Assembly (NCBI RefSeq): GCF_006125015.1
Contig: NZ_SZZN01000001.1
Location: forward strand, 558,001 to 622,000
Reading direction: 5' to 3'
Length of the DNA stretch: 64,000 nt
From: Roseovarius arcticus
GTDB taxonomy: Bacteria; Pseudomonadota; Alphaproteobacteria; Rhodobacterales; Rhodobacteraceae
Each line of letters begins with the position of its first letter. Position 1 is the stretch's first letter. The translations under genes and the position numbers were made by a program. The notes below the pieces were generated by a model, which saw only the letters and a program-made list of their open reading frames with translations, ran no database searches and was not told the DNA's origin. Shown piece after piece: positions 47,265 through 64,000 of the stretch.

Positions 47265-47354
47265 GGAGCGGTGGCCGAGTGGTCGAAGGCGCACGCCTGG
47301 AAAGTGTGTAGGCGGGTGACCGTCTCCAGGGTTCGAATCCCTGTCGCTCCGCCA
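47265..47354 (+). tRNA. tRNA-Ser (anticodon GGA)
   Basis: A 90-nt serine tRNA with encoded CCA. The acceptor stem GGAGCGG / TCGCTCC has one G-U pair at position 7, with discriminator G. The D-arm is GGCCGAGTGGTCGAAGGC, the anticodon loop CTGGAAA (GGA at 47299-47301) with a 5-bp stem, a long variable arm and T-arm CAGGG-TTCGAAT-CCCTG. Its 3' end is the left border of the mobile element that follows; a 21/25-identical copy of its last 25 nt lies at 53776-53800. Confidence 0.96.
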
Positions 47355-47524
47355 CCCACACAACTAATTTATATTATTGAATTTTGCGGTGATTTTATCG
47401 CCGTATTTCCGGTGGTTTGCGCCACTCTCACCGACACAGAGACGATACTGAGAGACGCATTTGGCGAATTGCGCTGACTACGTCTCTGTTGCTTGCAATC
47501 GGGGGTTCGGTTTTGGGGCAGGAT

Positions 47525-47542
47525 TTCCCTGCTGGCAGGGAA
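47525..47542. repeat. Palindrome TTCCCTGC-TG-GCAGGGAA
   Basis: A perfect 8-bp inverted repeat with a 2-nt spacer. Its right arm is the first unit of the adjoining GCAGGGAAT direct repeats, so palindrome and repeats share one sequence word. Possible protein-binding site. Confidence 0.7.
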
Positions 47543-47555
47543 TTTGCAGGGAATT
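47535..47555. repeat. Direct repeat copy 1 (two GCAGGGAAT units)
   Basis: A 21-bp element made of two GCAGGGAAT-like units in tandem. It recurs at 47644-47664 with one base difference (T to A in the middle), 109 bp away. Confidence 0.75.
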
Positions 47556-47643
47556 TTACTTGGATCCGACAGATTACATGCCGCCGAGGTGTCAATACAC
47601 GAGTGTTGTCAAGTGGTTGGACGGGAATTGCCTAGGGGCGGGA

Positions 47644-47664
47644 GCAGGGAATATGCAGGGAATT
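47644..47664. repeat. Direct repeat copy 2 (two GCAGGGAAT units)
   Basis: Second copy of the 21-bp tandem GCAGGGAAT element, 20 of 21 bases identical to 47535-47555. It lies about 50 bp before the recombinase stop codon. Confidence 0.75.
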
Positions 47665-47712
47665 CAGAGCGCATGAGCAAGCAGGTTGCAAGCACTGAAC
47701 AGCGAGCTTGGT

Positions 47713-49374
47713 TTACAGCCCGAACATGCGCTCTTGTGTGATCCAATCCAGAGGGATGGGTTGGCGCATCATCCGTTTCAAGGTGATCTCTGGCGGCAAG
47801 GTGCCATCGCGGATGGCGAGTTGTATCTTTGGTGACAGAAAGGCGAGTTGCGCGCGGGTCCGGATGAACGCGTCGTGATGCGTGTTATCTCCGGCGATCG
47901 TTGTGAGCGGTGTGCCAGCACGCAGAGCATGCACCCAGTGATGGGCCTCCCGAAGGGTCCGCATCAGGACAGGGTCAGGCACGGGATGATGATCTCCGAT
48001 CAGGAGTTTTGCTTCGATTCCGCGACGACGCAGACGGACTGGCGCATGAATGGTTGTGAGGCCCGGTGCAAGGTATCCTGCAGGGATGTTAAAACCGGTT
48101 GCGAGTGCTGTCTTGTCCAGAGTCAGCGCGATCCCCTGCGGGCTTATCGACCCGGAGATTAGAATTGCGCGCAGCGTGTCATGATCTTGTCGGCGTAGGC
48201 TCTCAAGGAGGTCTTTGGTTGCCTCTACTTGCACATCTCCGCTGCGCAAATCTGGCGCTTCCATCAACCTGTGTTCTTTGCGCGCTTCAGCGAGATGATC
48301 GACGATGACGGTCGCCATGGACGCTTCAAATCTTGCCGCCGGAAGTCGCCAGCCGGTGGGGTCGGGTCCGCCAGTGATCAGTCTGTTTGACACATAGTAG
48401 CAATGGCGCTTGCCAGACTTTGTGCTGTGGGTCGGCGTGAGCAGATCGCCGGTTTCATCACGGAATTTGCCAGTAAGAACAGCTTGTGTGGCGCCACTCT
48501 TGGTGCGGCCACGACTTCGCCGTGCCCCGTTTTGCAGCTTCTTTTGTACCCGCGCCCAAAGGTCTTCATCCAGAATACCCGCGTGCTGCCCAGGCCAGAT
48601 CTTGTCCTTGTGGCGGATCTTGCCGAGATAGACGGGGTTGAGCAGGAGTTTGTGAATCTGCCCCCGTGACAGATGGCGTCCTCCTTGTATGCGGCCCGAG
48701 CGGAACAAATGGCGCTTTGATCGCAGCCCTAGACGGTCGGCTTCGCGTTCGACGCAGGCGAGCGATCCGTATTGGTCATAGAGTTCGAAAAGTGCCTGAA
48801 CCGTCTGGGCCTCCTTTACATTGACAACCAGCATTCGAACGTTTGGGTCGGGATGAGGGTCGTAGCCCAGAGGCGGTACGCCACCCATCCAGAGGCCCTT
48901 CTTTTTTGAAGCTGCGATCTTGTCCCGGATGCGTTCCGCTGTGACCTCGCGTTCAAATTGGGCAAACGAGAGGAGCACATTCAGTGTCAATCGACCCATG
49001 GACGACGCTGTGTTGAAGGCTTGGGTAACCGAGACGAAGGAACACCCGGCAGCGTCAAAGCGTTCGACGAGCCGGGCGAAATCGGTAAGTGAGCGCGTCA
49101 GGCGATCAATTTTATAGACCACAACCATGCTGATCCGGCCAGCATCAATCTCCGTCAAAAGTTGCTTCAAAGCGGGACGTTCAAGCGTTCCGCCGGAGAG
49201 ACCGCCGTCATCGAAGCGGTCTCGCGCAAGCACCCAGCCTTCCTGCTTCTGGCTGACGATATAGGCGGAACAGGCTTCGAACTGCGCATCCAGTGAGTTG
49301 AAGCTTTGCTCCAATCCGTTCTCGGAGGACTTCCGCGTGTAGATGGCGCAGCGAATTTTGGATGCGACGCTCAT
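47713..49374 (-). CDS. Large serine recombinase
   Basis: Site-specific recombinase of the resolvase/invertase superfamily, 553 residues. The N-terminal catalytic domain has AIYTRKSSENGL with nucleophile Ser16, DDGGLSGGTLERPAL and VVYKIDRLTRSLTDFARL. A recombinase domain (about residues 165-280, MGGVPPLGYDPHP, GGRHLSRGQIHKLLLNPVYLG over its length) and a variant zinc-ribbon-like region (GKFRDETGDLLTPTHSTKSG) follow. It lies nearest the tRNA, as expected for an integrase. The start overlaps the DUF2924 stop (TGATG). Confidence 0.93.
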   Translation of the reverse strand: MSVASKIRCAIYTRKSSENGLEQSFNSLDAQFEACSAYIVSQKQEGWVLARDRFDDGGLSGGTLERPALKQLLTEIDAGRISMVVVYKIDRLTRSLTDFARLVERFDAAGCSFVSVTQAFNTASSMGRLTLNVLLSFAQFEREVTAERIRDKIAASKKKGLWMGGVPPLGYDPHPDPNVRMLVVNVKEAQTVQALFELYDQYGSLACVEREADRLGLRSKRHLFRSGRIQGGRHLSRGQIHKLLLNPVYLGKIRHKDKIWPGQHAGILDEDLWARVQKKLQNGARRSRGRTKSGATQAVLTGKFRDETGDLLTPTHSTKSGKRHCYYVSNRLITGGPDPTGWRLPAARFEASMATVIVDHLAEARKEHRLMEAPDLRSGDVQVEATKDLLESLRRQDHDTLRAILISGSISPQGIALTLDKTALATGFNIPAGYLAPGLTTIHAPVRLRRRGIEAKLLIGDHHPVPDPVLMRTLREAHHWVHALRAGTPLTTIAGDNTHHDAFIRTRAQLAFLSPKIQLAIRDGTLPPEITLKRMMRQPIPLDWITQERMFGL

Positions 49375-49778
49375 CAGGAACTGCCCCCTTTCCTAAAGAA
49401 CCTTGGTCCCGACCAATGTGCTCCGGTGATGGCGCGGGCGACCGATGACAAAGACCGATGGCATTGCCCATTCCAGAGATATCCCGCTTCGGTCACTTCG
49501 ACGACATGGGTCACCCCATTCCATTCCCGGAGCAAACGCCCACCGGGTTTGAGATTTGGTCTGGATTTACCGACAGGCGCTGAAGCCGACCGCTCGAGAT
49601 CAGCCATGAAGCCTTTTGGCAGCCCGCCAAACTGGCGCGTCTGGGCTTCGAAGGCCAGGAAACGGCGCAGGAATGACTGGCTCAACCCTTTCGGGACGGA
49701 GCATCGAAACAGGTCAGTCCAAGCGGAAATCAACGCCGGGCGGTTCATGGTCTCAATATCAGAGACGGAGACCTTCAT
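49374..49778 (-). CDS. DUF2924 protein
   Basis: A 134-residue protein of the DUF2924 type, with TDLFRCSVPKGLSQSFLRRFLA, KPGGRLLREWNGVTHVVEV and the end RSLSSVARAITGAHWSGPRF followed by FRK. This family regularly accompanies large serine recombinases in alphaproteobacteria, and the last part suggests nucleic-acid binding. It is coupled on both sides (4-nt overlap with DUF3489, 1-nt with the recombinase). Probably an accessory factor of the recombinase; function unproven. Confidence 0.85.
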   Translation of the reverse strand: MKVSVSDIETMNRPALISAWTDLFRCSVPKGLSQSFLRRFLAFEAQTRQFGGLPKGFMADLERSASAPVGKSRPNLKPGGRLLREWNGVTHVVEVTEAGYLWNGQCHRSLSSVARAITGAHWSGPRFFRKGGSS

Positions 49779-50017
49779 GCGCTCTCCGGAGTGCCGGTAA
49801 TCCGGTAGGCGACCGGGCCACCACCGGACTTTGGCGGTGTCTTATCGATCGTGTACCCGGCTTTGCGCAGGGTGCTGAGGGCTGCGCGCACCGAATGCGC
49901 CTGCCAGCCGGTGACGTCCTGTAGGGCCGCGATATCTGCGCCTGATTTGCGCGACAGAAGCTTGCGGACGATGGCGGATTTGGTCTCGCGCGGAGGGATG
50001 GTTGTGGTGTTGGACAT
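49775..50017 (-). CDS. DUF3489 winged-helix-like protein
   Basis: An 80-residue protein with a DUF3489 pattern: TKSAIVRKLLSRKSGADIAA, TGWQAHSVRAALSTLRKAGY and a beta-hairpin GGGPVAYRIT. This reads as a small winged helix-turn-helix DNA-binding domain. GAGGAG (reverse strand, 50023-50028) stands before the start. First gene of the recombinase operon, so it may regulate it or direct recombination. Confidence 0.85.
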   Translation of the reverse strand: MSNTTTIPPRETKSAIVRKLLSRKSGADIAALQDVTGWQAHSVRAALSTLRKAGYTIDKTPPKSGGGPVAYRITGTPESA

Positions 50018-50385
50018 TGTCGTCTCCTCGGGTTTGGCGGACGCGGCTGCATGCCGACCCTACCGAGGAGAGCCCGGACTGGGAACCGGGCGTGAGACCA
50101 ATGACGCTCTGTTCGGTCGTGAAGTCCAGTCGATTGTTTAGGTTAAAAAGCCACGCCCCCAAGAGCCGTTTGTCAACTGTTTCAATAGGTTGATGGAAAT
50201 ACTTGTTGCGTGACCGGCTATCTCCATGTACGAAATGAGTATCACGCCGCGGCAGGAGGCTTCGGCAATCGATCAACCACACGTCCCTTTATGATGTGCT
50301 CTGGGTTGTCTGATTGCTTCCTGTTTTGCAAACGTTGTCAGCCTTCAGACGCACCTTCAGGGACAAACCCCAAGGAGGTTCAAAA
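50018..50385. promoter_or_regulatory. Divergent control region of the element
   Basis: About 370 nt between the recombinase operon (left) and the methyltransferase operon (right), with no convincing gene. Both operon promoters must lie here. No strong hexamers or repeats were recognised apart from the two ribosome sites. Confidence 0.4.
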
Positions 50386-51882
50386 ATGGGCAAATTCACA
50401 GATAAGAACTCAAAGCAAGCAGGCGTCGGGACAAATGTGTCGCTACCCAACGATGTACCAACCAAGACCGCTGAAGGCACTCACGACGGTGAAGTATTAT
50501 CCGGACTGCATGGTCAGAACGATCTGTTCCGGGAAGTGGCTCTGGTCTGGATCCTGGTTGGTCTGATAGACGACTCGCCTCGACGTGTCCGGCTCGCTCT
50601 GAAGAGTCAGACCGGAGCCGTTCTACAAGCCGTCAAGCGGTTCGGGTTCCGTGTTCCTATCCTTGTCCGCAACAAGCCCGGAGGCCAACGCTACGAGGTG
50701 ATCGATGGGCACGTCCGTCTCGCAGTTGCGCGGACGCTGGGTGTGGAGAATATTCCTTGCATTGTAGTTGATGATTTGCCGGAATTGGAAGTCCGCCGCC
50801 TGGTACTGTCTCTGAACAAGTTGCAAGAGACGGGTGCATGGGACAACAACATCCTCCGGCTTGAGATCAACGAAATTATCGAAATCAGTGGGGATCTGGA
50901 ATTCCCCGGCTTTGAGTCTCCTGCAATAGAGGCGATCCGCTTTGGCGAGGCAGGGGCTGACGACGTGGACCCTGCCGATGATCTCTCCGGAATGGACCAT
51001 CCCGAGGCGCTGCCCGTCACCAAGCCCGGCGATCTGTGGCTATTGCGCGATCATCGGTTGCTATGTGGCTCATCTCGGGACGGGACCGGTTTGGCAAATG
51101 TCTTGGGCAACCAAGTGGCCGACGTGGTCTTCACCGATCCGCCGTACAACGTGAAGATCAATGGTCATGTCAGGGATGCATCAGGCGGCTTTGCGGAGTT
51201 TGTCGAGGCCTCTGGCGAAATGTCCAGTAAGGCGTTTGTCGCGTTTTTGATTGAGACGATCGGGTCAGCATCTGCGTGTCTTAAGCCCGGTGGCGCTCTT
51301 TTTGCCTTCATGGATTGGCGTCACGTCGGGGAGATGTCAGAGGCCCTCGCTATGCTTAAACTCGATCTGCTCAACATCTGCGTCTGGGTCAAGACCAGCC
51401 CGGGCATGGGTAGCCTTTACCGCAGCCAGCACGAGTTTGTGTTTGTCGCGAAAAAGCCCGGGGCATCACACATGAACAATGTCCAGCTTGGCAAGAACGG
51501 CCGCAACCGCACAAATGTCTGGCAGTTCGCTGGCGCGACGGGCGGGACTTGGGATGCAGATGATGCATTTGATGTGCATCCAACCGTCAAGCCCATCCGT
51601 CTGGTCATGGAGGCGATGCTCGATGTGACGGTGCGCGGCGACCTGGTGCTGGACCCTTTCCTGGGGTCGGGAACGACATTGCTGGCCGCTGAGCGCACAA
51701 ACCGACTCTGCACAGGTGTGGAAATTGAGCCACGTTACATTGATCTCGCGATCCGCCGCTGGCAGGAAATGACGGGTGATCAGGCAGTCCATTCAGAGAC
51801 CGGGCAAAGCTTCAACTCCCTTGCGCCTGGTGATGCACGGGACCGCGTTCAGACCATTTCTGAAAACGGGGAGGACTTCTGA
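50386..51882 (+). CDS. ParB-like / DNA methyltransferase fusion
   Basis: A 498-residue protein from the ATG at 50386 (AAGGAGG at 50372-50378; the frame is open to 50314). The ParB/Srx-like N-terminal domain (about residues 45-170) has YEVIDGHVRLAVARTLG. The methyltransferase domain (about 215-470) has catalytic TDPPYN near residue 252 and, later, the SAM-binding DPFLGSGTTLLAAE. DPPY before FxGxG marks a beta-class amino-methyltransferase (N6-adenine or N4-cytosine). No restriction enzyme is seen, so it is a solitary, phage-type enzyme. The stop overlaps the next start. Confidence 0.9.
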   Translation: MGKFTDKNSKQAGVGTNVSLPNDVPTKTAEGTHDGEVLSGLHGQNDLFREVALVWILVGLIDDSPRRVRLALKSQTGAVLQAVKRFGFRVPILVRNKPGGQRYEVIDGHVRLAVARTLGVENIPCIVVDDLPELEVRRLVLSLNKLQETGAWDNNILRLEINEIIEISGDLEFPGFESPAIEAIRFGEAGADDVDPADDLSGMDHPEALPVTKPGDLWLLRDHRLLCGSSRDGTGLANVLGNQVADVVFTDPPYNVKINGHVRDASGGFAEFVEASGEMSSKAFVAFLIETIGSASACLKPGGALFAFMDWRHVGEMSEALAMLKLDLLNICVWVKTSPGMGSLYRSQHEFVFVAKKPGASHMNNVQLGKNGRNRTNVWQFAGATGGTWDADDAFDVHPTVKPIRLVMEAMLDVTVRGDLVLDPFLGSGTTLLAAERTNRLCTGVEIEPRYIDLAIRRWQEMTGDQAVHSETGQSFNSLAPGDARDRVQTISENGEDF

Positions 51883-52352
51883 TGGCCACCGAAACTGAAA
51901 ATCATGATCCCTACCATGTGGGCTATGGCAAGCCGCCAAAGCACACGCAGTTCAAGAAGGGTCAATCGGGAAACCCCAGCGGTAAGAGCACCAAGGAAGA
52001 ATCCGTCAAGGCCAAGATCAAGAAGATCGCAGGCGACGAAATTATTGTTCATGTAAACGGTTCGCCGGTTGTGATGACGAACCTGGAGGCAATGCTGCAC
52101 AAGGCCTTTATGGAGGCAAAAAGTGGCAATCCCCAGTTCTTCAAATTCCTCGTTCAGGAACTGGCAGTCGACCCGGTTGATATATTTCAGCCGTCCAATC
52201 TTGTGCTGACCGAGGCGGACCTTGCTGTTCTGAAAACCCAGGCTGATTGGATGGGACTTATCGAGAGTACCAAAGCCGCCATAGAAAACACGGATGGATC
52301 AGAGCCATTAGAAAATGGAGATGACTATGACGAACCAGACCCCGACGGCTGA
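51882..52352 (+). CDS. DUF5681 protein
   Basis: A 156-residue protein with the DUF5681 hallmark VGYGKPPKHTQFKKGQSGNP near its N-terminus, then Lys-rich and helical segments and an acidic tail. It overlaps the methyltransferase stop (TGATG) and precedes the terminase. The position suggests a terminase-small-subunit-like or DNA-binding packaging role, but that is inferred from context only. Confidence 0.82.
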   Translation: MATETENHDPYHVGYGKPPKHTQFKKGQSGNPSGKSTKEESVKAKIKKIAGDEIIVHVNGSPVVMTNLEAMLHKAFMEAKSGNPQFFKFLVQELAVDPVDIFQPSNLVLTEADLAVLKTQADWMGLIESTKAAIENTDGSEPLENGDDYDEPDPDG

Positions 52353-53748
52353 TGTCCTCCGAGCGCTGTATCGGTTTAAACTCATCGCGTATGTCGAGCG
52401 CGCCTTTGCTGAGCTCAGACCGGGTGTGCCGTTCCATTATGGTCATCACATCCGTGCCATTTGCCACGTATTGGAACAAATCGAACGCGGTGAGATCACA
52501 CGACTGATCATCCTGATGCCCCCGCGCCACATGAAGTCACATTGTGCCAGCGTGGTCTTTCCCGCCTGGGCACTCGGCAGGAACCCGTCTCTGCGGATGA
52601 TATGCATGAGCTATGGCCTCGACTTGGCAGAGACCTTCAGTCGAGATACGCGGCGGATTATTCAATCTGACCTGAGCCAAGCGGTGTTTCGAGAGCTGTT
52701 GCTCGATCCCACAAAAGCTTCGGCAACCGAACTGCGGACGACACTTAACGGCTATCGGTTGGCGACATCTGCAGGCGGTCCTCTGACCGGCAAAGGCGCA
52801 GACATCCTGATTGCTGATGACATCAGCAAGGCAGAGGACGCGGCGTCACAGTCTCGGCGGGATAATGTCTGGGAGTGGTTTACCGGGACTGCAATGACGC
52901 GGCTCGACAATCCAAAAACCGGTGCCGTGATCCTCGTTGCGCAGAGGCTGCATGTAGATGACCTTCCGGGCCGACTGATAGCAGCTGGCGGTTGGGACGT
53001 CCTGGAGCTGCCTGCTATTGAAACCCAGGATCGGCTTATTCCGCTCGCGAAGGGTGCAAATTGGGCGCGCAAAACTGGAACTGCTCTCCTGCCGGCCCAC
53101 ATGGACCTGCCCGAATTTGAGGCAAAACGGCGCGAGATCGGGAGTCCCACCTTTGACACCCAATATCAGCAGTCACCGACCCTGGCTGGCGGTATCATCG
53201 TCCGACCCGAGTGGTTTCGCGAGATTCCAATTACAATGCGGCGGAGCGACTACGAGGCGGTCATTCAAAGCTGGGATCCGGCGGCTGTTCCAGGCGAGTC
53301 AAATGACTATTCTGTCTGCACTACTTGGGGCCTCATTGGAAACCACATCGACTTGCTTGACGTGTATCGCAAACAAGTGGTCCAGCCTGATCTCCTGCGG
53401 GACGCGCAATTGCTGGGTAAGAAATGGAGCCCCAAACTGCTGATCGTGGAGGCCGTTGGGGCCGGGCGCGGCGTTTACGATCACCTCAGACGAAATTGCT
53501 CCTATGGAGTTCGTCCGCTAATACCCAGGCAGGGAAAAGTGGAACGTCTGTCGATCCAGTCGCCAAAGATTGAAGCCGGTCTGGTCCGTCTGCCGCAAAG
53601 CGCACCGTGGAAAGAGGCCTTCCTCAACGAAGTGGTCGCCTTTCCAAACGGAAAATACGACGACCAGGTCGATAGCATGTCCCAAGCTCTCTTCGCACTG
53701 GATCGTCAGCTAGGGGAACTCAGGCACTGCTCTCGGTACAAAGGATAA
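52327..53748 (+). CDS. Phage terminase large subunit
   Basis: DNA-packaging motor ATPase-nuclease, 473 residues from the ATG at 52327, chosen because GGAG (52317-52320) is well spaced; in-frame ATGs at 52315 and 52321 are alternatives. The ATPase domain has MPPRHMKSH as its P-loop and ILIADDIS as Walker B; the QRLHVDDLPGRL segment couples the domains. The RNase H-like nuclease has acidic residues in IQSWDPA, LIVEAVGAG and YDDQVDSMSQAL. All motifs look intact. No portal or capsid gene follows. Confidence 0.9.
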   Translation: MTNQTPTADVLRALYRFKLIAYVERAFAELRPGVPFHYGHHIRAICHVLEQIERGEITRLIILMPPRHMKSHCASVVFPAWALGRNPSLRMICMSYGLDLAETFSRDTRRIIQSDLSQAVFRELLLDPTKASATELRTTLNGYRLATSAGGPLTGKGADILIADDISKAEDAASQSRRDNVWEWFTGTAMTRLDNPKTGAVILVAQRLHVDDLPGRLIAAGGWDVLELPAIETQDRLIPLAKGANWARKTGTALLPAHMDLPEFEAKRREIGSPTFDTQYQQSPTLAGGIIVRPEWFREIPITMRRSDYEAVIQSWDPAAVPGESNDYSVCTTWGLIGNHIDLLDVYRKQVVQPDLLRDAQLLGKKWSPKLLIVEAVGAGRGVYDHLRRNCSYGVRPLIPRQGKVERLSIQSPKIEAGLVRLPQSAPWKEAFLNEVVAFPNGKYDDQVDSMSQALFALDRQLGELRHCSRYKG

Positions 53749-54701: not shown

Positions 54702-55853
54702 TCAGCTTACCCGCAAGTCATTTGTCAGCCGTGATAGCCGTTTGAAGCCATCCTCTGTTACCACGCCGGTCTCCCCGAGCGACATGGTGCGGCCGCTATC
54801 GAGATCGACCAAGATCATATGCATAAAAAACACCATGTTCGGCTGGATAACCGTCGGTGCACCGGCGCAGAACATCGGTTGCTCCATCCACGAAGGGGGA
54901 TAGTTGGCACTTAGGGAATAGCCACAGGCATTCAGCCGGTGTTTGCGGTAGCCAGCCGCGTCGAGGATGCGAGCGTGGGTTTCGAAGACGTCGCCAACGA
55001 GGTTGCCCGGCTTGCACACCTCCTGACAGGCAATCAGCGCTTCGCAGCAAGCGTCATGCATCCTCTTATGGCCTGAGGAGACTTTGCCAGTGAGTGCCGT
55101 TCGCATGATACAGGCATGGTAATGTCGATAGGACGCGCCGAATTCCAGCTGGATCTGATCTTGGATTCCGATTGTCTCTCGACCAGTGAAATTCCGAACA
55201 AGCAGCGCCCCTTCGCCGGACCCGATAATAAACCTTCCCGCGGGATAATCTCCGCCGCCTTCGAAAATCGCATTATGGGCCACGGCAAACAGATGCCCCT
55301 CGTTAACGCCTGCTTTCAATTCCGCATAAACGTCTTCGATTGCATCATCTGCCAGTTCAGCCGCTCTTGTGATGTATTCCAACTCGGCGGGGCTTTTGAC
55401 TATGCGAAAGTTCTGCACCAATCCAGAGGCATCACGGAGCATGCAGAAACCAGCCAGTGAGTTGCGGACCATATCCCAACGCGCGCCCGTCAGGCAGGCA
55501 CCGTCAAGCTCGACGCCAATCCGTTTGCCGCCGCAATTGTACGTGGTGAGCAGTTCTTTCAGATCTTCCCCCGGTGTTGACCCTTCACGATCTACCCAGA
55601 TTCGAATATCTTCGATCAGAGAGGTATGCATTGCCTGTCTGTGGTCAGCCGAACGGGTGAGCAAGGCTAAGGCGCCATCCGCCCCGAAGTATAATGCCTG
55701 AAACTGCGAATACCCGGTGGTATCGTAGCCGGTCAGATAATACATCGTCTCCTGCTTGAAGATCAGCAGGCCATCAAGCTCCTGTTCGGATAGCGCGGAC
55801 TTGACCCGGTCATGACGAGATGCAAACTCTTCTTGCGTAAAGTGCAGCGGCAT
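54702..55853 (-). CDS. M24-family (creatinase/Xaa-Pro peptidase-like) hydrolase lacking usual metal ligands
   Basis: A 383-residue pita-bread-fold protein from the ATG at 55853; the longer open frame to 56027 overlaps the solute-binding-protein gene. The N-terminal creatinase-type domain has GLLIFKQETMYYLTGYDTTG. In the catalytic half the usual DxG...DxTRT and GHG metal motifs appear as LEFGASYRHYHACIMRT and CGYSLSANYPPSW, and only a late Glu (LGETGVVTEDG) is kept. This resembles metal-independent creatinase or ectoine-hydrolase-like members, which cleave C-N bonds in non-peptide substrates. Same operon as the solute-binding protein. Confidence 0.8.
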   Translation of the reverse strand: MPLHFTQEEFASRHDRVKSALSEQELDGLLIFKQETMYYLTGYDTTGYSQFQALYFGADGALALLTRSADHRQAMHTSLIEDIRIWVDREGSTPGEDLKELLTTYNCGGKRIGVELDGACLTGARWDMVRNSLAGFCMLRDASGLVQNFRIVKSPAELEYITRAAELADDAIEDVYAELKAGVNEGHLFAVAHNAIFEGGGDYPAGRFIIGSGEGALLVRNFTGRETIGIQDQIQLEFGASYRHYHACIMRTALTGKVSSGHKRMHDACCEALIACQEVCKPGNLVGDVFETHARILDAAGYRKHRLNACGYSLSANYPPSWMEQPMFCAGAPTVIQPNMVFFMHMILVDLDSGRTMSLGETGVVTEDGFKRLSRLTNDLRVS

Positions 55854-55929
55854 TGAGTGTTGTCCCAGGTTCGAATGCAGTTCCGAGATGATCGGGCGCC
55901 ACCATGGCCGCGCCCGATCTTTGGTGAGG

Positions 55930-57519
55930 TTAAGCGAACCACCAACGCTCCAGGCATTTGATGCCGTCCATATCCCACGCTGCCGACATGCGATTGTGGG
56001 CCACCTTGTCGTTGGTGGCGAAAACATAATTCGAGAAGACGGGTGCGATTACGCCACCGTCATCGCTGCACAGTTTTTGCATCTCAAAGTACATTTCGCC
56101 CCGTTTGCCGGTATCCTGCTCTGATCGTGCCTGTTTGAGCAGATCATTGAAACGCGGATTTGCCCAATGCGTTTCGTTCAGGGACACACCCTCGGCATAG
56201 ATCGATGAGAAAACCCAATCCTCGGTCACGCGACCACTCCAGTAAGAAGCGACGAAGGGTTTCTTGTCCCAGACATTTTCCCAGTAGCCATCATTCGGCT
56301 CGCGAATTACATCGATGTTGATGCCAGCCTTGGACGCGTGTTCCTTGTACAAGAGCGCGCCGTCAACGGCCCCGGAAAATGCGGCATCCGCCGCACTGAG
56401 GGGGACGGTCAACTCGGTCAGGCCGGCCTTTTTCAGGTGATATTTTGCCTTGTCCGGGTCATAGGGCCGCTGTGGCAACTCGGTCGCAAAATACTTGTTG
56501 GACCTCCCGATCGGGTGATCGTTGCCAACGTAGCCATGGCCGAACAGGAGTTTGTCCAATAGGTCCTGGCGGTCAATCCCGTATTTCAGCGCCAAACGCA
56601 CATCGGGGTTGTCGAACGGCGGCGTGTCGCAGAACATCGAGTACACATAGTGCAGAGTACCTTGGGTTTCTTTCAGGTTGATGCCGGGCCGCTTGCCCAG
56701 AAGATGGGCGGTTTTCAGGTCAACCCGATCCATGGCGTCGATCTCACCGGACACCAGCGCGCTGGTACGGGCGTTGGTGTCGATGATGGATAGGATCTCG
56801 GCTTCATCGAAATGGCCGTGTCCTTCTTTCCAGTAGTTGGGATTTCGCACCATGGATGTGCTGATGCCGGGCTCGAAGTTCTTCAGCTTGTATGCCCCGG
56901 TACCATCGCCGGATCGCCAATCTACGACGCCGTCGCGGGCAGGCAGGATGGCAATGTGATAATCACTCAGCAGGTAGGGGAAATCGGCATTTCCATTGGA
57001 AAGCTTGATAGCAATCGTGCTCTTGCCGTCGGCCCGAATTTCTTCGATGGGGGCCAGAATGCTATACACCAGCGAGGTGGAGTTTTCGCCGAGGTGGTGT
57101 TGCAGGGACGCGATGACATCTTCTGCATCCATCGTCTTACCGCTGTGAAATTCGATGCCTTTTTTCAGCTCGAACGTCCATTCAGTCGCGTCAGCGGAAC
57201 CTTCCCAGCTTTCGGCGAGCTCTGATACCAGCTGGTCCTCATTGTTGATCTCGGTTAGGCAGTTGCGCAGACCGAAGCCGACAATCTGCATGTAGGTGTC
57301 TTCGAATGTCGCCGGATCCAAAGTATTCGTTGTTGATCCAAGACCCAGACCAATGCGCATGCGCCCTCCTGTCTTTGGGGGCGCGGCCATCGCAGGGCTG
57401 TCAGCCAGCGAAATAGCGGCTGGCAGCGTTAGACCCATGGCAAGAGCCCTAGAAATGAATTCGCGACGTGAGAGCTCGCTTCGACCGGGTGAGCGTGTCA
57501 GTTTGTCAATGTTTTTCAT
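55930..57519 (-). CDS. ABC transporter solute-binding protein, family 5, Tat-exported
   Basis: Peptide/opine/nickel-type periplasmic binding protein, 529 residues. Of two in-frame ATGs (57525, 57519) the second is preferred: the AAAGGAG (57528-57534, reverse) is only 2 nt from the first but properly spaced for the second. The twin-arginine signal SRREFISRALAMGL precedes a cleavage-like AMAA near residue 47. ELKKGIEFHSGKTMDAEDV and LALKYGIDRQDLLDKLLFGH are family hallmarks. Divergent from the IclR gene; its permeases and ATPase lie at 60.8-64 kb. Confidence 0.9.
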   Translation of the reverse strand: MKNIDKLTRSPGRSELSRREFISRALAMGLTLPAAISLADSPAMAAPPKTGGRMRIGLGLGSTTNTLDPATFEDTYMQIVGFGLRNCLTEINNEDQLVSELAESWEGSADATEWTFELKKGIEFHSGKTMDAEDVIASLQHHLGENSTSLVYSILAPIEEIRADGKSTIAIKLSNGNADFPYLLSDYHIAILPARDGVVDWRSGDGTGAYKLKNFEPGISTSMVRNPNYWKEGHGHFDEAEILSIIDTNARTSALVSGEIDAMDRVDLKTAHLLGKRPGINLKETQGTLHYVYSMFCDTPPFDNPDVRLALKYGIDRQDLLDKLLFGHGYVGNDHPIGRSNKYFATELPQRPYDPDKAKYHLKKAGLTELTVPLSAADAAFSGAVDGALLYKEHASKAGINIDVIREPNDGYWENVWDKKPFVASYWSGRVTEDWVFSSIYAEGVSLNETHWANPRFNDLLKQARSEQDTGKRGEMYFEMQKLCSDDGGVIAPVFSNYVFATNDKVAHNRMSAAWDMDGIKCLERWWFA

Positions 57520-57793
57520 TCGCATTCTCCTTTAATTCCAGACACACCTATTCGGCATGCTTGGGTGGATTTTGCACTCTGGAACCATATGAGAACGCAA
57601 AATGCTGGCAGCTGTCCTGCTACAAATGGGGCAATCGGCACTATTCAGAGTTTTTCCAACCAAGTTGGAGGCCGTTTTGCATGCCTTCCGCCAATACCCG
57701 TAATTGAGCGAAAATACCGTTTCCGGCGTTCTTCTATCAGGCCTCAATCGATCCATCCCGCGCTCTGAAGGATAAGCTCTAACTCGCTTGAAA

Positions 57794-57810
57794 GTTCCGC
57801 TTAAAGAAAC
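57794..57810. promoter_or_regulatory. Operator-like palindrome 1
   Basis: GTTCCGCTTAAAGAAAC, a 17-bp imperfect palindrome (outer GTT/AAC arms). It matches the copies at 57815 and 59141 in the GTTCCGCT and GAAAC parts. Centre-to-centre distance to the next copy is 21 bp. Likely IclR-protein site. Confidence 0.6.
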
Positions 57811-57814
57811 TATC

Positions 57815-57831
57815 GTACCGCTCAGTGAAAC
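57815..57831. promoter_or_regulatory. Operator-like palindrome 2
   Basis: GTACCGCTCAGTGAAAC, 15 of 17 bases identical to the amidase-promoter copy at 59141-59157. Two helical turns (21 bp) from palindrome 1. Confidence 0.65.
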
Positions 57832-58064
57832 TACCTAAAATTATACGGAGGCTTTCATTTGAGTCAACGAATTTCTTATTGGATAATTTGGGCATGGGGT
57901 GATGCTCGATCGCTTTGGACCTGTTTACGCCGGAACGCATCCGCTCGACTTTCGGGAATCTGCAATTGGAACAGTGTCATTACATTGGCCGCCCCACCAA
58001 CAGTGAAACAATATTTCTGGTATCCTGTAGCGTTATTGATTCGAATGGAGACTGGGTATTTACG

Positions 58065-58835
58065 ATGACTGGAACGCCACAAAGAGATGTGCTGAATAAA
58101 TCGGTCGCCCTCATCGATGCTTTAAGCCGCGCCAGTGGTTCCATGCGATTTGTCGATCTGGTGAAAGCCGCAGGATTGCCCAAGAGCACCAGTCATCGGC
58201 TTCTGGGCTCGCTTGCGCGCGAAGGGCTTGTCGAATTTGACGCGAAAAATCAGCGCTATCGCCTAGGCCTCAAGATACTGACCTGGGCTTCCAATACCTG
58301 GAACAACGTCGAGGTTGCTTCCGTGGCCGTCGACGAGATAGATGCGCTCCACGCCAAAGTGAGTGAACAGGTTTCGCTCGCTGTTCGGGATGGGATGGAT
58401 GTGGTCTATGTCCGAGCAACCGAGTGCAATCAGCAACTGAAAATCATTGCCAGCCAGATCGGGGACCGGGAACCGGCGCATTGTACGGCGGTGGGGAAAG
58501 TCATGCTGGCCCACCTTCCGACCGCCACGCTTGACGAGCTTTTAGGCACGAGGACGCTGACGCGCTTTACGGAAAATACCATCACCGACCGGGCAAAATT
58601 CGAGCAAGAGCTAAGCCAAATCAGGCAGCGGGGATTTGCGTATAGTGACAGGGAAAAGCACGAAATGGTGCGCGGCATAGCGGCGCCGGTATTTGATTTT
58701 GAAGGTCGCATTATTGCTGCCCTTAACATCTGGGCGCCCGTATTCCGCATTGAGCCGGAGGTTCTTCTTGCCTGGACAGATGTTTTGAACGCCGCAGCGC
58801 TGAGGATTTCTCAGAAAATGGGCCATACGGCCTAA
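58065..58835 (+). CDS. IclR-family transcriptional regulator
   Basis: A 256-residue regulator from the ATG at 58065; the frame is open to 57915, but this start gives the family's normal length. Winged helix-turn-helix at about residues 12-70 (LNKSVALIDALSRASGSMRF, GLPKSTSHRLLGSLAREGLV). The C-terminal effector domain has HCTAVGKVMLAHLP, RGFAYSDREKHEMVRGIAAP and the late IIAALNIWAP. Located between the two arms of the transport module, so it very likely controls them through the 17-bp palindromes; repressor or activator is unknown. Confidence 0.9.
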   Translation: MTGTPQRDVLNKSVALIDALSRASGSMRFVDLVKAAGLPKSTSHRLLGSLAREGLVEFDAKNQRYRLGLKILTWASNTWNNVEVASVAVDEIDALHAKVSEQVSLAVRDGMDVVYVRATECNQQLKIIASQIGDREPAHCTAVGKVMLAHLPTATLDELLGTRTLTRFTENTITDRAKFEQELSQIRQRGFAYSDREKHEMVRGIAAPVFDFEGRIIAALNIWAPVFRIEPEVLLAWTDVLNAAALRISQKMGHTA

Positions 58836-59081
58836 AGCGTTCGCGACACGCTCTGGTGGCTTCAAACGCGCTGTTGATGGGGGATCCCCTCTCTTTTTTC
58901 CGCCCCACGAAGCACTGCCGCGCACCGGGCCGCAGAAGATCTACAATAGCATTTCCTTTAGCGCAGACACCCGCATAAGCCGTTCGGCCATAAGCTTTTA
59001 AATTGCGCGGCCGCGCCCTCTTCCCCGGAGGTTTCAGCTGACAGGAGCAATTTATTGCGCCAACGTTTCGAGCATTCTCGT

Positions 59082-59108
59082 TTGACAAGGCGGCAAGAAA
59101 AATAATAC
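59082..59108 (+). promoter_or_regulatory. Candidate promoter of the amidase-transport operon
   Basis: A perfect -35 TTGACA (59082-59087) followed after 15 nt by TAATAC (59103-59108) in AT-rich sequence. A TATATT at 59110 is an alternative -10 but too distant. The operator-like palindromes lie just downstream, where a bound repressor would block transcription. Confidence 0.4.
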
Positions 59109-59119
59109 CTATATTATGT

Positions 59120-59136
59120 GGTCCGCCTAACGGGAC
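59120..59136. promoter_or_regulatory. Operator-like palindrome 3 (weak)
   Basis: GGTCCGCCTAACGGGAC, an imperfect palindrome (GTCCGC / GGGAC) sharing about 10 of 16 defined positions with GTTCCGCTnAGTGAAAC. It is placed exactly 21 bp before palindrome 4, the same spacing as the pair near the IclR gene. Confidence 0.4.
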
Positions 59137-59140
59137 ACTG

Positions 59141-59157
59141 GTTCCGCTGAGTGAAAC
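59141..59157. promoter_or_regulatory. Operator-like palindrome 4
   Basis: GTTCCGCTGAGTGAAAC, a 17-bp palindrome with half-sites GTTCCGCT and GTTTCACT. It nearly repeats the copy at 57815-57831 (15 of 17 identical). About 140 nt upstream of the amidase start and downstream of the TTGACA element. Confidence 0.65.
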
Positions 59158-59296
59158 AAGGGGCAACACCACGAACCGCATGTCTTGATCGGGCAGGCAA
59201 ACATTTTTGATGGCACCATGAGTTCATTCTTCGGCGTGGTTGCTGCGCAGCAATCCCGCACCATCGAAGTGACATGGTCCCGAAGGAGAAGCTGCT

Positions 59297-60739
59297 ATGC
59301 ATCTGACTGAATACGCCCGTTATGATGCGGTGGGTCTGGCTGAGCTTGTGACCAAAAAGGAAGTGACCTCCAAAGAGCTGGCATCACTGGCTCTGCAAGC
59401 CATCGACCATGTCAACGCCGATCTCAATGCCACCATTCAGACCTTCACTGAACGCGTAGATTCCTGTGCCGCTTCCGGGCCTTTCTCGGGCGTTCCGATG
59501 CTTAACAAGGATATTGGTTGTGAAGAAAAGGGCGTCTTGTGCGAGATGGGCAGCAAGCTTGCGCTTGGCAATATTTGTACGCAAGACAGCCTTGTTTTCT
59601 CGCGGTTTCGCCAAGCGGGCTTTATCAATCTGGGTAGAACAACAACCCCTGAATTCGGCCTCGCCGGTGTCACGGAAAACTCTGTTACCGGGATTTCCCG
59701 TAACCCATGGAATCGCGATCACACTCCCGGCGGCTCCAGTGGCGGGTCTTGCGCAATGGTCGCGGCCGGTGCGGTGCCGATTGCCACTGCGAGCGATGCC
59801 GGCGGCTCCATTCGCAGCCCCGCATCACATAGTGGTTTGGTCGGTCTAAAGCCGACCCGCGGGCGCATTCCCGCGGGGCCATCTCACGCAGAATCTCTTA
59901 ACGGCCTTGGGACAACTTTTGCCGTGACACGCACAATGCGTGATTGCGCCGCGACGCTGGATGCTGTGCAGGGGGCGGCAATCGGCGACCCCTACAAGAT
60001 TGCCCCTCCTGCGAGACCCTATATGGACGAGCTTGGTCAACGCTCCAAGCCCATGCGCATCGCCTATTCGACTACGCCTTGGGTGCGCGCGTGCGATCCC
60101 GAAGTTGACGCGGGTGTCAAACAAGCACTGAGCGTTCTGGAAGATGCCGGACACCACGTAGAAGAGGCCAGACCCGAAATAGATTATGTGGCTCTCATGG
60201 CCGCAGCTTTGACGCTTTCCTGTGCAAGTGTGGCCAATAGCTCGGATGCCCTTGGCGCGTTGCTCGATCGAAAACCCGGGCCCGATAACCTGCAATCCGC
60301 GACATGGGCATTTTATGAAGTCGGAAAAAAGCTGTCTGCGAGTGATGTGCTGAACGCCTTGGACGTTTTAAATGTGGTAAACCGGCAGGCCGGGCAATTT
60401 TTTGAGTCCTACGATGTGTTGGTTCTGCCAAGTTGCCTTGGGCCCGCGCCGCTTATTGGTGCGCTCGATTGTGATCCGGTAGGCCCGGTTGATCCCCATA
60501 CTTGGAATGAACAGGTCTCCAAATTGGGTGTTTTCATGCCGCTCTTCAACGTCACCGGCCAACCAGCGATCTCACTGCCACTTCACCAAAGCTCTACCGG
60601 TTTGCCAATCGGGGTACAATTTGCAGCGAAATTTGGCGACGAGGCGCGACTTTTTGCCTTGGGCGGGTTGCTCGAAGAGGCGCTGCCGTGGGCAGACAGA
60701 ATACCGCCACTTCACGTTTCAAATAAGCTCAGTCAATAA
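59297..60739 (+). CDS. Amidase (amidase signature family)
   Basis: A 480-residue amidase-signature hydrolase. The Ser-cisSer-Lys triad is complete: Lys71 (LNKDIG), Ser147 (GGSSGGS) and nucleophile Ser171 ([10 protein letters not shown]), with spacings as in characterised enzymes. No signal peptide, so cytoplasmic. AAGGAG precedes the ATG. It heads the amidase-permease-permease-ATPase operon, so it probably hydrolyses an amide in the imported compound. The GatA subunit is a less likely alternative because gatB/C are absent. Confidence 0.9.
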
Positions 60740-60824: not shown

Positions 60825-61781
60825 ATGGACCGACTACCCGTATTGGTGATCAAACGCCTTGCCTTTGGAGTGGTGACGCTTTTCATTATTTCGGTAATCG
60901 TATTTCTGGGGTTAGAGGCGCTGCCGGGCGATCTCGCTCAGACGATTCTGGGTCAGGCTGCAACCGAAGAAAACACCGCCGCCCTGCGGCAGAAATTGGG
61001 GTTGGATCTGCCTGCTCATGTCCGGTATCTTTCCTGGCTGGGCGACATACTCGTGGGTGATTTAGGGGAATCCTTGGCCAGCGGCCGGCCGATTTCCGAG
61101 CTTCTGGGCGCGCGCTTGGGAAACACGTTTTTCCTTGCGGCCGTTTCTGCGGCACTGGCTGTACCGATCGCCCTTTTTCTTGGGATCGTGTCCGTTCTGT
61201 ATCGGGAGCGTTGGGTCGACAAACTAATTTCGATCTCAACGCTTTCGGCCATTTCCTTCCCGGAGTTTTTCATCGCCTATATACTGATCCTCGGGCTTTC
61301 CGTTGAATTTCAGATATTCCCGAGCTTTTCCCGCATCACTCCAGATATGGGGTTCTGGAACAAGCTTTACGCCGTTGCGCTCCCCGCCCTTACCCTGACC
61401 TTGATTTCGGTCGCTCATATGATGCGCATGACACGCGCGGCAATATTAAACGTTATTTCGAGCCCCTATATCGAAATGGCCATTCTGAAAGGAATGACGC
61501 GCTGGCGCATCATTGTGCACCATGCTTTGCCAAACGCGCTTTCACCGGTAATTAACGTCATCGTTCTGAATCTCGCCTTCATGATCGTCGGTGCCGTCGT
61601 GATTGAAGTTGTTTTTGTTTACCCCGGGTTGGGTCAGCTGCTCGTAGATTCCGTTTCCAATCGCGACCTACCTGTCGTCCAGGCCAGCGTCCTCATTTTT
61701 GCCTCTACCTATGTGATGCTGAATTTGCTGGCGGACATTCTGTCAATTGTCACCAATCCAAAATTGAGGAATCCAAAGTGA
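60825..61781 (+). CDS. ABC transporter permease, DppB type
   Basis: Inner-membrane permease of the dipeptide/oligopeptide/nickel uptake class, 318 residues from the ATG at 60825 (GAAGAAGG upstream); a GTG at 60792 is a less likely start. About six helices. Family features: VVTLFIISVIVFLGLEALPG, LGLDLPAHVRYLSWLGDILV, the EAA loop MAILKGMTRWRIIVHHALPN and the end VFVYPGLGQLLVDSVSNRD. Second gene of the amidase operon; partner of the DppC-type permease. Confidence 0.92.
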   Translation: MDRLPVLVIKRLAFGVVTLFIISVIVFLGLEALPGDLAQTILGQAATEENTAALRQKLGLDLPAHVRYLSWLGDILVGDLGESLASGRPISELLGARLGNTFFLAAVSAALAVPIALFLGIVSVLYRERWVDKLISISTLSAISFPEFFIAYILILGLSVEFQIFPSFSRITPDMGFWNKLYAVALPALTLTLISVAHMMRMTRAAILNVISSPYIEMAILKGMTRWRIIVHHALPNALSPVINVIVLNLAFMIVGAVVIEVVFVYPGLGQLLVDSVSNRDLPVVQASVLIFASTYVMLNLLADILSIVTNPKLRNPK

Positions 61782-61791
61782 GGAGCGATTG

Positions 61792-62652
61792 ATGGGAGCG
61801 ACCTGGAAATTCTTGCGCTGCGCGCCGACCGCGGCAAAAATTGGCATGGTCATTGTTCTTCTGAACTGTTTCGCCGCCGTCTTTGCCCCGGCAATCGCAC
61901 CCTACGGTGAAACCGAAATCGTTGGCGCCCCGTGGGAAAACGGCTTCTGGGACGCGCAAGCGCCAGAGCACACTCCGCCAGTCGTCCTTGGGACCGACCA
62001 CATCGGGCGCGATTTGTTAACACGTGTTTTGTTTGGCGCGCGTAACACGATCGGGATCGCGCTGATGACGACGACCCTCGCTTTTGCGGTTGGTGTTTCG
62101 CTTGGGTTTCTCGCCGCCAGCCTGAGAGGTTGGGTTGACCAATTGATCAGCCGGTCATTCGACGTGATAATGGCGATCCCGACACTCATATTTGCTCTGA
62201 TGATACTGTCTGTTCTGGGCACCGAGATACATATTCTGATCATAGTGATCGCGCTGCTGGATTCGACGCGTGTTTTTCGGATTTCACGCGCGGTCGCGAT
62301 GGATGTGGAAATCATGGAGTATGTCGAGGTCGCCAAACTGCGCGGCGAAGGCCTGTGGTGGGTGATGCGGCGTGAAATCCTTCCCAACACGATGGCCCCG
62401 CTGATAGCCGAGTTCGGACTTCGCTTCTGTTTTGTATTTCTGTTCATCGCCGCTCTCAGTTTCCTGGGACTTGGGATTCAGCCGCCCTCTGCCGACTGGG
62501 GCAGCATGGTGCGAGAGAACGCCCAGGGGATCACCTTTGGTATCATCATCCCTCTCATTCCCGCCGCCGCCATCGCCCTGCTGACAGTTGGTGTGAATTT
62601 GGTGGTCGATTGGTTTCTGCAGCAAGCATCCGGGATACGCGATACGCGGTAG
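61792..62652 (+). CDS. ABC transporter permease, DppC type
   Basis: Second permease, 286 residues from the ATG at 61792 (AGGAG at 61781-61785; a TTG just before is an in-frame alternative). N-terminal helix, then the typical LGTDHIGRDLLTRVLFGARN, four or five further helices and the EAA motif MEYVEVAKLRGEGLWWVMRR. C-terminal SFLGLGIQPPSADWGSMV is diagnostic for DppC/OppC. Ten nt after the dppB-type stop. Confidence 0.92.
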   Translation: MGATWKFLRCAPTAAKIGMVIVLLNCFAAVFAPAIAPYGETEIVGAPWENGFWDAQAPEHTPPVVLGTDHIGRDLLTRVLFGARNTIGIALMTTTLAFAVGVSLGFLAASLRGWVDQLISRSFDVIMAIPTLIFALMILSVLGTEIHILIIVIALLDSTRVFRISRAVAMDVEIMEYVEVAKLRGEGLWWVMRREILPNTMAPLIAEFGLRFCFVFLFIAALSFLGLGIQPPSADWGSMVRENAQGITFGIIIPLIPAAAIALLTVGVNLVVDWFLQQASGIRDTR

Positions 62653-62675
62653 CCCTCAAGCCACGAGGAAATTCA

Positions 62676-64000
62676 ATGTCTGACCCATTGCTGGCGATCA
62701 AGGATCTGGTTGTCGAAGGATATCAGGACGAGCAGTGGAATCGCATTGTACGCGGTGTTTCGCTGACCCTGAAAAAAGGCGAAGTTCTGGGCTTGATTGG
62801 CGAGTCCGGAGCCGGAAAATCCACCCTTGGCATCGCCGCCATGGGACATGTGCGGCCCGGTTGCCGCATTGCCAGCGGTTCGATCATGTTCGATGGAATC
62901 GACATGACCACCGCGCCTGAAGAGAAGCTTCGCAAGATGCGGGGCGTCAGGATTGCCTATGTGGCGCAGAGTGCTGCCGCCGCTTTTAATCCGGCGCACA
63001 CATTGATGCAGCAGTTCACGGAAACGCCGGTGTTCCACGGCGTAATGGATTATAAACGCGCCAAAAAATCCGCCCAAGACCTGTTCAAGGTTCTGGACCT
63101 GCCCGACCCGGAGAAAATCGGGAACCGTTATCCTCATCAAGTATCGGGCGGGCAATTGCAACGCGCAATGGTGGCGATGGCCATGGCCTGCAATCCGGAC
63201 CTGATTATTTTTGATGAGCCCACCACCGCGCTCGACGTCACAACCCAGATCGAGGTGCTGGCTGCGATCAAGGATGCCATTCGCAATTATGATACGGCTG
63301 CTCTTTATATCAGTCATGATTTGGCCGTCGTGTCGCAGATTGCAGATCGCATCATGGTTCTGCGTAATGGCGGCGAAGTGGAAACCGGCAAAACCCGTCA
63401 GATTATCGAAAATCCCAGAGAGGAGTACACACGCGCATTGGTGTCAGTAAACCACATCCACAAAGATAAATTGCAACCGAAAGACAGAAATCGCGAAGTT
63501 CTTGTCCTGCGAAATATCTCGGCCAGCTATGGCAGGGGGGTGAAGATTCTGGATGATGTCAGTATCACTCTAACACAAGGTAAGACCGTAGCCTTGGTGG
63601 GAGAATCTGGCTCGGGCAAATCAACGGCCGCGCGCGTCATCACCGGATTGCTGCCACCAGATGAGGGCGAGATCAGCTTTCAAGGCGAACCTCTTGCCCC
63701 CTCGTTCAGGGACCGCCCCAAGGATGTACTTCGCCGCATACAGATGATCTATCAAATGCCAGACGTTGCCCTTAACCCGCGGATGAAGGTCAAAGATGTT
63801 ATCGGGCGACCGCTGGCTTTCTATTTCGGCTTGACCGAAGATACCAAAGATCAACGCGTCGCTGAACTACTTGAGAAAATCGAACTGGGCGACACCTATC
63901 TTGATCGGTATCCGTCTGAATTATCCGGGGGCGAGAAGCAGCGGGTGTGCATCGCCCGCGCGCTGGCCGCTGAGCCCGAGCTTATCGTGTGTGATGAAAT
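62676..64000 (+). CDS. ABC transporter ATP-binding protein, fused DppD-DppF type (cut by window end)
   Basis: At least 441 residues and still open at the window end. Two ATPase domains in one chain. The first has Walker [10 protein letters not shown] (about residue 43), signature VSGGQLQRA, Walker [13 protein letters not shown] and switch His in YISHDLAVV. The second has GESGSGKST (about residue 310), LSGGEKQRV and LIVCDE at the edge. This GsiA/YejF-like fusion powers both permeases. GAGGA precedes the ATG at 62676. Last visible gene of the amidase operon. Confidence 0.93.

Follow-up and report, generated by a model that had tools for sequence, protein, structure and literature searches.

Palindromic operators of IclR-type regulators have been catalogued by Suvorova and Gelfand 2021 (PMC8222616), where GTTYCRY-W3-RYGRAAC is the palindrome of one of four main IclR subgroups, most site centres lie at −20 to −80, and 94 orthologous groups show tandem sites 18–22 bp apart, an arrangement that its authors tie to tetramer binding, with TtgV cited as the case in point. 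The locus presented here, from Roseovarius arcticus, shares with the group 1, GTT-11-AAC subgroup the same 17-bp palindrome GTTYCRY-W3-RYGRAAC and, as in group 1 operators, carries its sites in tandem, some two helical turns from one another, next to transporter and catabolic genes. Since tandem sites are already described for so many groups, the present case joins a known kind. It departs from the same source in that bases other than A/T occur among the central three and in that the operators lie farther out, 139–268 bp before the start codons; compared with the three-box site of PcaU described there, there are two palindromes per promoter.

The window, that is, the whole 64,000-nt stretch of DNA analysed, holds most of a divergent module that spans 54.7 to 64.3 kb, with arm 1 running leftward and iclR followed by arm 2 running rightward. 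The genes are as follows.

54702..56027 (longest ORF), minus strand: arm 1, M24 metallopeptidase-fold hydrolase (Peptidase_M24 and Creatinase_N)
55930..57525, minus strand: arm 1, family 5 solute-binding protein of a dipeptide/nickel-type ABC transporter (SBP_bac_5, 235.8 bits)
58065..58835, plus strand: IclR-type regulator, 256 aa, predicted binder of the sites described below (HTH_IclR 47.8 bits, cut-off 22; IclR_C 139.3 bits, cut-off 24)
59297..60739, plus strand: arm 2, first gene, amidase (Amidase, 287.8 bits)
60825..61781 and 61792..62652, plus strand: arm 2, two ABC permease genes (BPD_transp_1)
62673..64000 and on past the window, plus strand: arm 2, double ABC ATPase, 548 aa in all (ABC_tran in two stretches)

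Comparison with relatives places the true start of the M24 hydrolase probably near 55853. Its nearest solved relative is the ectoine hydrolase DoeA and that of the amidase is 6-aminohexanoate-cyclic-dimer hydrolase; neither names the substrate of the module.

On one side of these genes, at window positions 47265–53748, a tRNA-Ser(GGA) precedes a large serine recombinase (47713–49374, minus strand), and genes for a DUF2924 protein, a ParB-like/DNA methyltransferase fusion, a DUF5681 protein and a terminase large subunit-like protein come after it. This stretch has the look of a genomic island's entry end, and the island may carry the catabolic module. Just beyond the other end of the window (L023:756–10387, contig 622756–632387) lie an IS240-type DDE transposase, Vsr, a C5-type methyltransferase and MzaE-, MzaD- and MzaC-like proteins, a defence system adjoining the module.

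Both Pfam domains of the regulator, the N-terminal HTH and the C-terminal effector domain, score above their cut-offs and place it in the IclR family. The best-scoring NCBI model is PcaR/PcaU/PobR (TIGR02431), whose 168.3 bits stay below the curated cut-off of 284.75, and the module proteins scanned here include no aromatic-degradation enzyme. Other equivalog models likewise fell short of their cut-offs: BhcR (158.7 of 350 bits), KdgR (142.4 of 275), IclR of the glyoxylate bypass (113.3 of 380) and AllR (97.6 of 406). Among structurally described members of the family, TtgV of Pseudomonas putida (PDB 2XRO) is a weak sequence match (E 3.9e-16 to the 2xrn chain); by eye, and with reference to Table 5 of PMC8222616, the recognition helix starts with Pro-basic-Ser-Thr in both proteins, although TtgV is described there as regulating efflux transporters, unlike this module. 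A limited full-text literature search turned up one paper, on LuxR solo regulators, and no published description of the regulator itself.

The first-pass annotation of this DNA had pointed to four 17-bp copies of an imperfect palindrome, one of them weak, paired at exactly 21 bp in each of two intergenic regions. All four are present, four to six of their eight arm positions pair strictly, and the start-to-start distance is 21 bp in both gaps.

57794..57810, plus strand: predicted operator half-pair A1, GTTCCGCTTAAAGAAAC, matching the published IclR group 1 consensus at 13 of 14 arm positions
57815..57831, plus strand: predicted operator half-pair A2, GTACCGCTCAGTGAAAC, 13/14 arm matches to the same consensus, 21 bp from A1
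59120..59136, plus strand: predicted operator half-pair B1, the weaker copy, GGTCCGCCTAACGGGAC, 13/14 arm matches
59141..59157, plus strand: predicted operator half-pair B2, GTTCCGCTGAGTGAAAC, 14/14 arm matches, 21 bp from B1

Pair A occupies the gap between the binding-protein and iclR genes, 268 bp from the start codon of the former and 233 bp from that of the latter, and pair B precedes the amidase operon, 139 bp from the amidase start codon. A possible extra site, with 12/14 arm matches, is seen at 59161, 20 bp after B2.

How unusual these sites are depends on the yardstick. A plain count of matches to a symmetric consensus derived from the sites themselves, allowing up to three mismatches, is not striking: four in the window against a shuffle mean of 2.13, with 12 of 100 shuffles reaching four. 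Those matches do not include the weak copy at 59120; the fourth is at 56171, within the binding-protein gene. The group 1 consensus of PMC8222616 (W3 form, 14 arm positions), which was derived independently of this window, gives a stronger test: at least 13 of 14 positions are matched only at the four palindromes listed above, out of 63,984 window positions. The four sites agree with the GTTYCRY-W3-RYGRAAC subgroup consensus at 12–14 of 14 arm positions and with the group 1 consensus at 13–14; they thus answer to the GTT-11-AAC operator type of that source, its W3 centre being only partly kept. Over the whole genome (4,221,330 bases), 59141 and 57815 alone come within zero or one mismatch of the symmetric consensus derived from the sites; five places have two mismatches, among them 57794. 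Nor is the paired arrangement scattered at random: a 38-bp sequence model of the pair, run against the genome at E up to 10, gave two places among the 150 of 177 first-look candidates that were scored, and both are the pairs described here.

When a genome collection of 84,980 species was scanned for the regulator, 39 loci came back, two of them close, L030 from Roseovarius sp. ZX-A-9 (80% identity) and L031 from R. aestuarii G21610-S1 (75%), both of the same genus as the source genome; best-segment identities of the other 37 were 28–37%. The recognition helix PKSTSHRLL is identical in the three orthologues and gene order around the regulator is the same in both relatives, several ORF families having been checked and the rest judged by likeness. 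Absence of the motif from the orthologous loci, which would have counted against the first-pass annotation, is not what is seen: in both close loci compared, a 21-bp pair stands in each gap, with A1 and A2 at L030:5729 and 5750 and at L031:3427 and 3448, and B1 and B2 at L030:7001 and 7022 and at L031:4629 and 4650. The tandem spacing described in PMC8222616 (centres 18–22 bp apart) is therefore found as 21 bp in both gaps of all three genomes. Across the resulting 12 sites, 11–14 of the 14 arm positions agree with the published consensus, and positions 1, 4, 5 and 16 are invariant.

Weight matrices trained on two genomes and applied to the third give a test that does not reuse the sites it ranks. 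With the two related loci as training set, the four window sites take ranks 1–4 of 63,984 positions, and at 21 bp the two window pairs score 34.1 and 32.3 where the next pair scores 4.5. The reciprocal matrices rank the sites 1, 5, 2 and 4 in L030 and 3, 4, 5 and 2 in L031, the one site that interleaves being an intragenic one in the binding-protein gene, and the orthologous pairs come first and second at 21 bp in both. Averaged by column, identity is 79% within the six pairs, compared with 68% and 65% for the two whole gap alignments; the comparison covers three orthologous loci, all of one genus. Chance repeats or a leftover of duplication would fit the unremarkable degenerate count and the 75% likeness of pair A and pair B over 36 nt. 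Against them stand these cross-genome ranks with the 21-bp pairing, the independently derived consensus that picks the same four sites, and the retention of the pairs in both close relatives at higher identity than the gaps as a whole, and we give such an origin next to no weight.

The pairs sit at a nearly constant distance from promoter elements, which are listed here.

57840..57867, minus strand: predicted binding-protein promoter, TTGACT-16-TATAAT, 11 of 12 consensus positions; pair A begins 8 bp after the −10
59082..59087, plus strand: TTGACA, the −35 of the amidase operon, 32 bp before pair B and kept in all three genomes

In the leftward direction the −35 reads TTGACT, TTGACT and TTGACA and the −10 TATAAT, TATAAA and TATGTT in the three genomes (hexamers of the relatives assigned by eye), and the longest invariant run of the leftward gap alignment is, by eye, the block containing that −35. 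On the rightward side, the TTGACA promoter proposed in the first-pass annotation holds as a conserved −35 but lacks a good −10 at 16–18 bp: the promoter scan listed none at this hexamer, and the nearest candidate, TATATT (59110–59115), is 22 bp away. In the three genomes the pair begins 30, 31 and 29 bp after the −35 in the leftward arm, and 32 bp after it in every case in the rightward arm. The leftward promoter ahead of pair A and these closely similar distances were not part of that annotation. Beginning 29–32 bp after the −35, both pairs thus cover the expected start site or lie immediately beyond it. With regard to a possible autoregulation of iclR, pair A is 233–237 bp from the iclR start in the three genomes; rightward promoter-like matches are present in the window, and none was seen to be conserved in the gap alignment.

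Such placement, 29–32 bp after a conserved −35 in both arms, suggests repression. The opposite sign of control, in which the IclR protein binds the pairs and activates both operons as some family members do, would agree with the PcaR/PcaU/PobR model being the nearest by score, a subfamily that includes activators, and with the poor −10 of the amidase arm, of the kind found at activated promoters. Activators usually bind upstream of the −35 or over it, whereas here the pairs lie past the core promoter in both arms of three genomes, and the near-consensus leftward promoter also speaks against activation, which we regard as unlikely. Repression is the reading retained below.

The leaders that follow the pairs are long, 57526–57793 (268 bp) and 59158–59296 (139 bp) in the window, 266 and 128 bp in L030 and 180 and 111 bp in L031. 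A riboswitch or other known RNA was considered for them and set aside, as a search of 57400–59400 gave no Rfam match up to E 1.

Conservation beside iclR orthologues, which the first-pass annotation had put forward as a check, was followed through the genus and the family. Among 84 genus genomes, the pair model (E up to 0.01) finds the pair in three, and an orthologous iclR (E up to 1e-60) is found in the same three. These are the genomes from which the model was built and their matches arise by construction, so that the informative part is the absence of the pair from the other 81 (0/81), at most 80 candidates having been scored per genome under stricter filters. In 394 family genomes (E up to 0.05, at most 17 candidates scored per genome, again under stricter filters, so that weak pairs may be missed in both searches), four places appear outside the source genome. 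At three of them (G031, G188, G379) the pair overlaps the start of an IclR-type gene or comes directly before it, and the fourth (G283, locus L081) has it beside no iclR gene. The three IclR-type genes are not close orthologues of ours, G031 and G188 having no match to our regulator at E 1e-40 and G379 none at 1e-60. Those three places, in three other genera of the family, carry the tandem palindromes at L079:1500–1537, L080:1501–1538 and L082, about 1501–1530. A hydantoinase/oxoprolinase gene (Pfam) comes next in L079, and alike ORFs, judged by eye, in L080 and L082. That the model finds IclR genes absent from its training is good evidence for the paired site as an IclR-type operator.

As to the regulator itself, two samples of the family, of 198 and 394 genomes, gave no close orthologue beyond the source genome: E 1e-40 returned five further genomes with relatives of 32–38% identity, and E 1e-60 returned none. 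In 72,556 plasmid records there was no DNA match to 57526–59296 at E 1e-5, and IclR relatives at E 1e-30 occur in 90 plasmid records, all under 60% identity. Close protein relatives (P0002, P0003, P0005–P0012) share 62–80%, one of them named as from a Sulfitobacter MAG.

These distributions also bear on which protein would occupy the sites. A different regulator, such as another IclR-type protein encoded in this genome, is conceivable in that a first-look protein search gave 10 candidate stretches here and that, in PMC8222616, many IclR proteins share this type of motif. Among the 150 of 177 candidates scored in this genome, the pair was nevertheless found only at this module, where it flanks this iclR on both sides, and within the genus, with at most 80 candidates scored per genome, it was found only in genomes with its orthologue; we judge another binder very improbable and keep the intervening regulator as the predicted one.

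A further operator-like palindrome lies within the binding-protein gene, at 56171–56187 in the window, L030:4114–4130 and L031:1892–1908, on the same codons in all three. It scores 11.4 in the window, 17.7 in ZX-A-9 and 20.5 in R. aestuarii, where no other single site of the locus scores higher. A third operator at 56171, 1.6 kb from the first pair, could let the tetramer loop the leftward operon in the manner of auxiliary lac operators, but this is improbable: a conserved VSLNET is encoded here, and the choice of synonymous codons alone, under the codon usage of five window genes, reaches the three scores, in the above order, with probabilities of 0.63, 0.11 and 0.02. Given the low score of the copy in the window, we favour a coincidence of coding, and the palindrome is explained at least partly by the encoded VSLNET.

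Taken as a whole, the IclR regulon linking both arms that the first-pass annotation had predicted finds support in conservation, in co-distribution with the iclR orthologue and in the match to a published consensus. From these comparisons of sequence, the two gaps very probably hold two tandem operators for the intervening IclR-type regulator (58065–58835), which would repress both operons as a tetramer until an effector releases it. Each 17-bp palindrome would be occupied by a dimer of the regulator; at a spacing of 21 bp the two dimers would lie on one face of the helix and may join as a tetramer. Since both operators are directly downstream of core promoters, the bound regulator would block initiation or early elongation of both operons. 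The effector would probably be the imported compound or a breakdown product of it.

This locus leaves the general picture of how IclR regulators act unchanged: the arrangement is a known one, and the example, though sound, is ordinary. What it contributes to the known tandem-site class is a clean case with two promoters, at both of which the operator spacing is conserved. It also offers a concrete, testable regulon for an IclR-type regulator, in which transporter, amidase and M24 hydrolase would be tied into one inducible unit, and their membership in one unit would narrow the search for the substrate.
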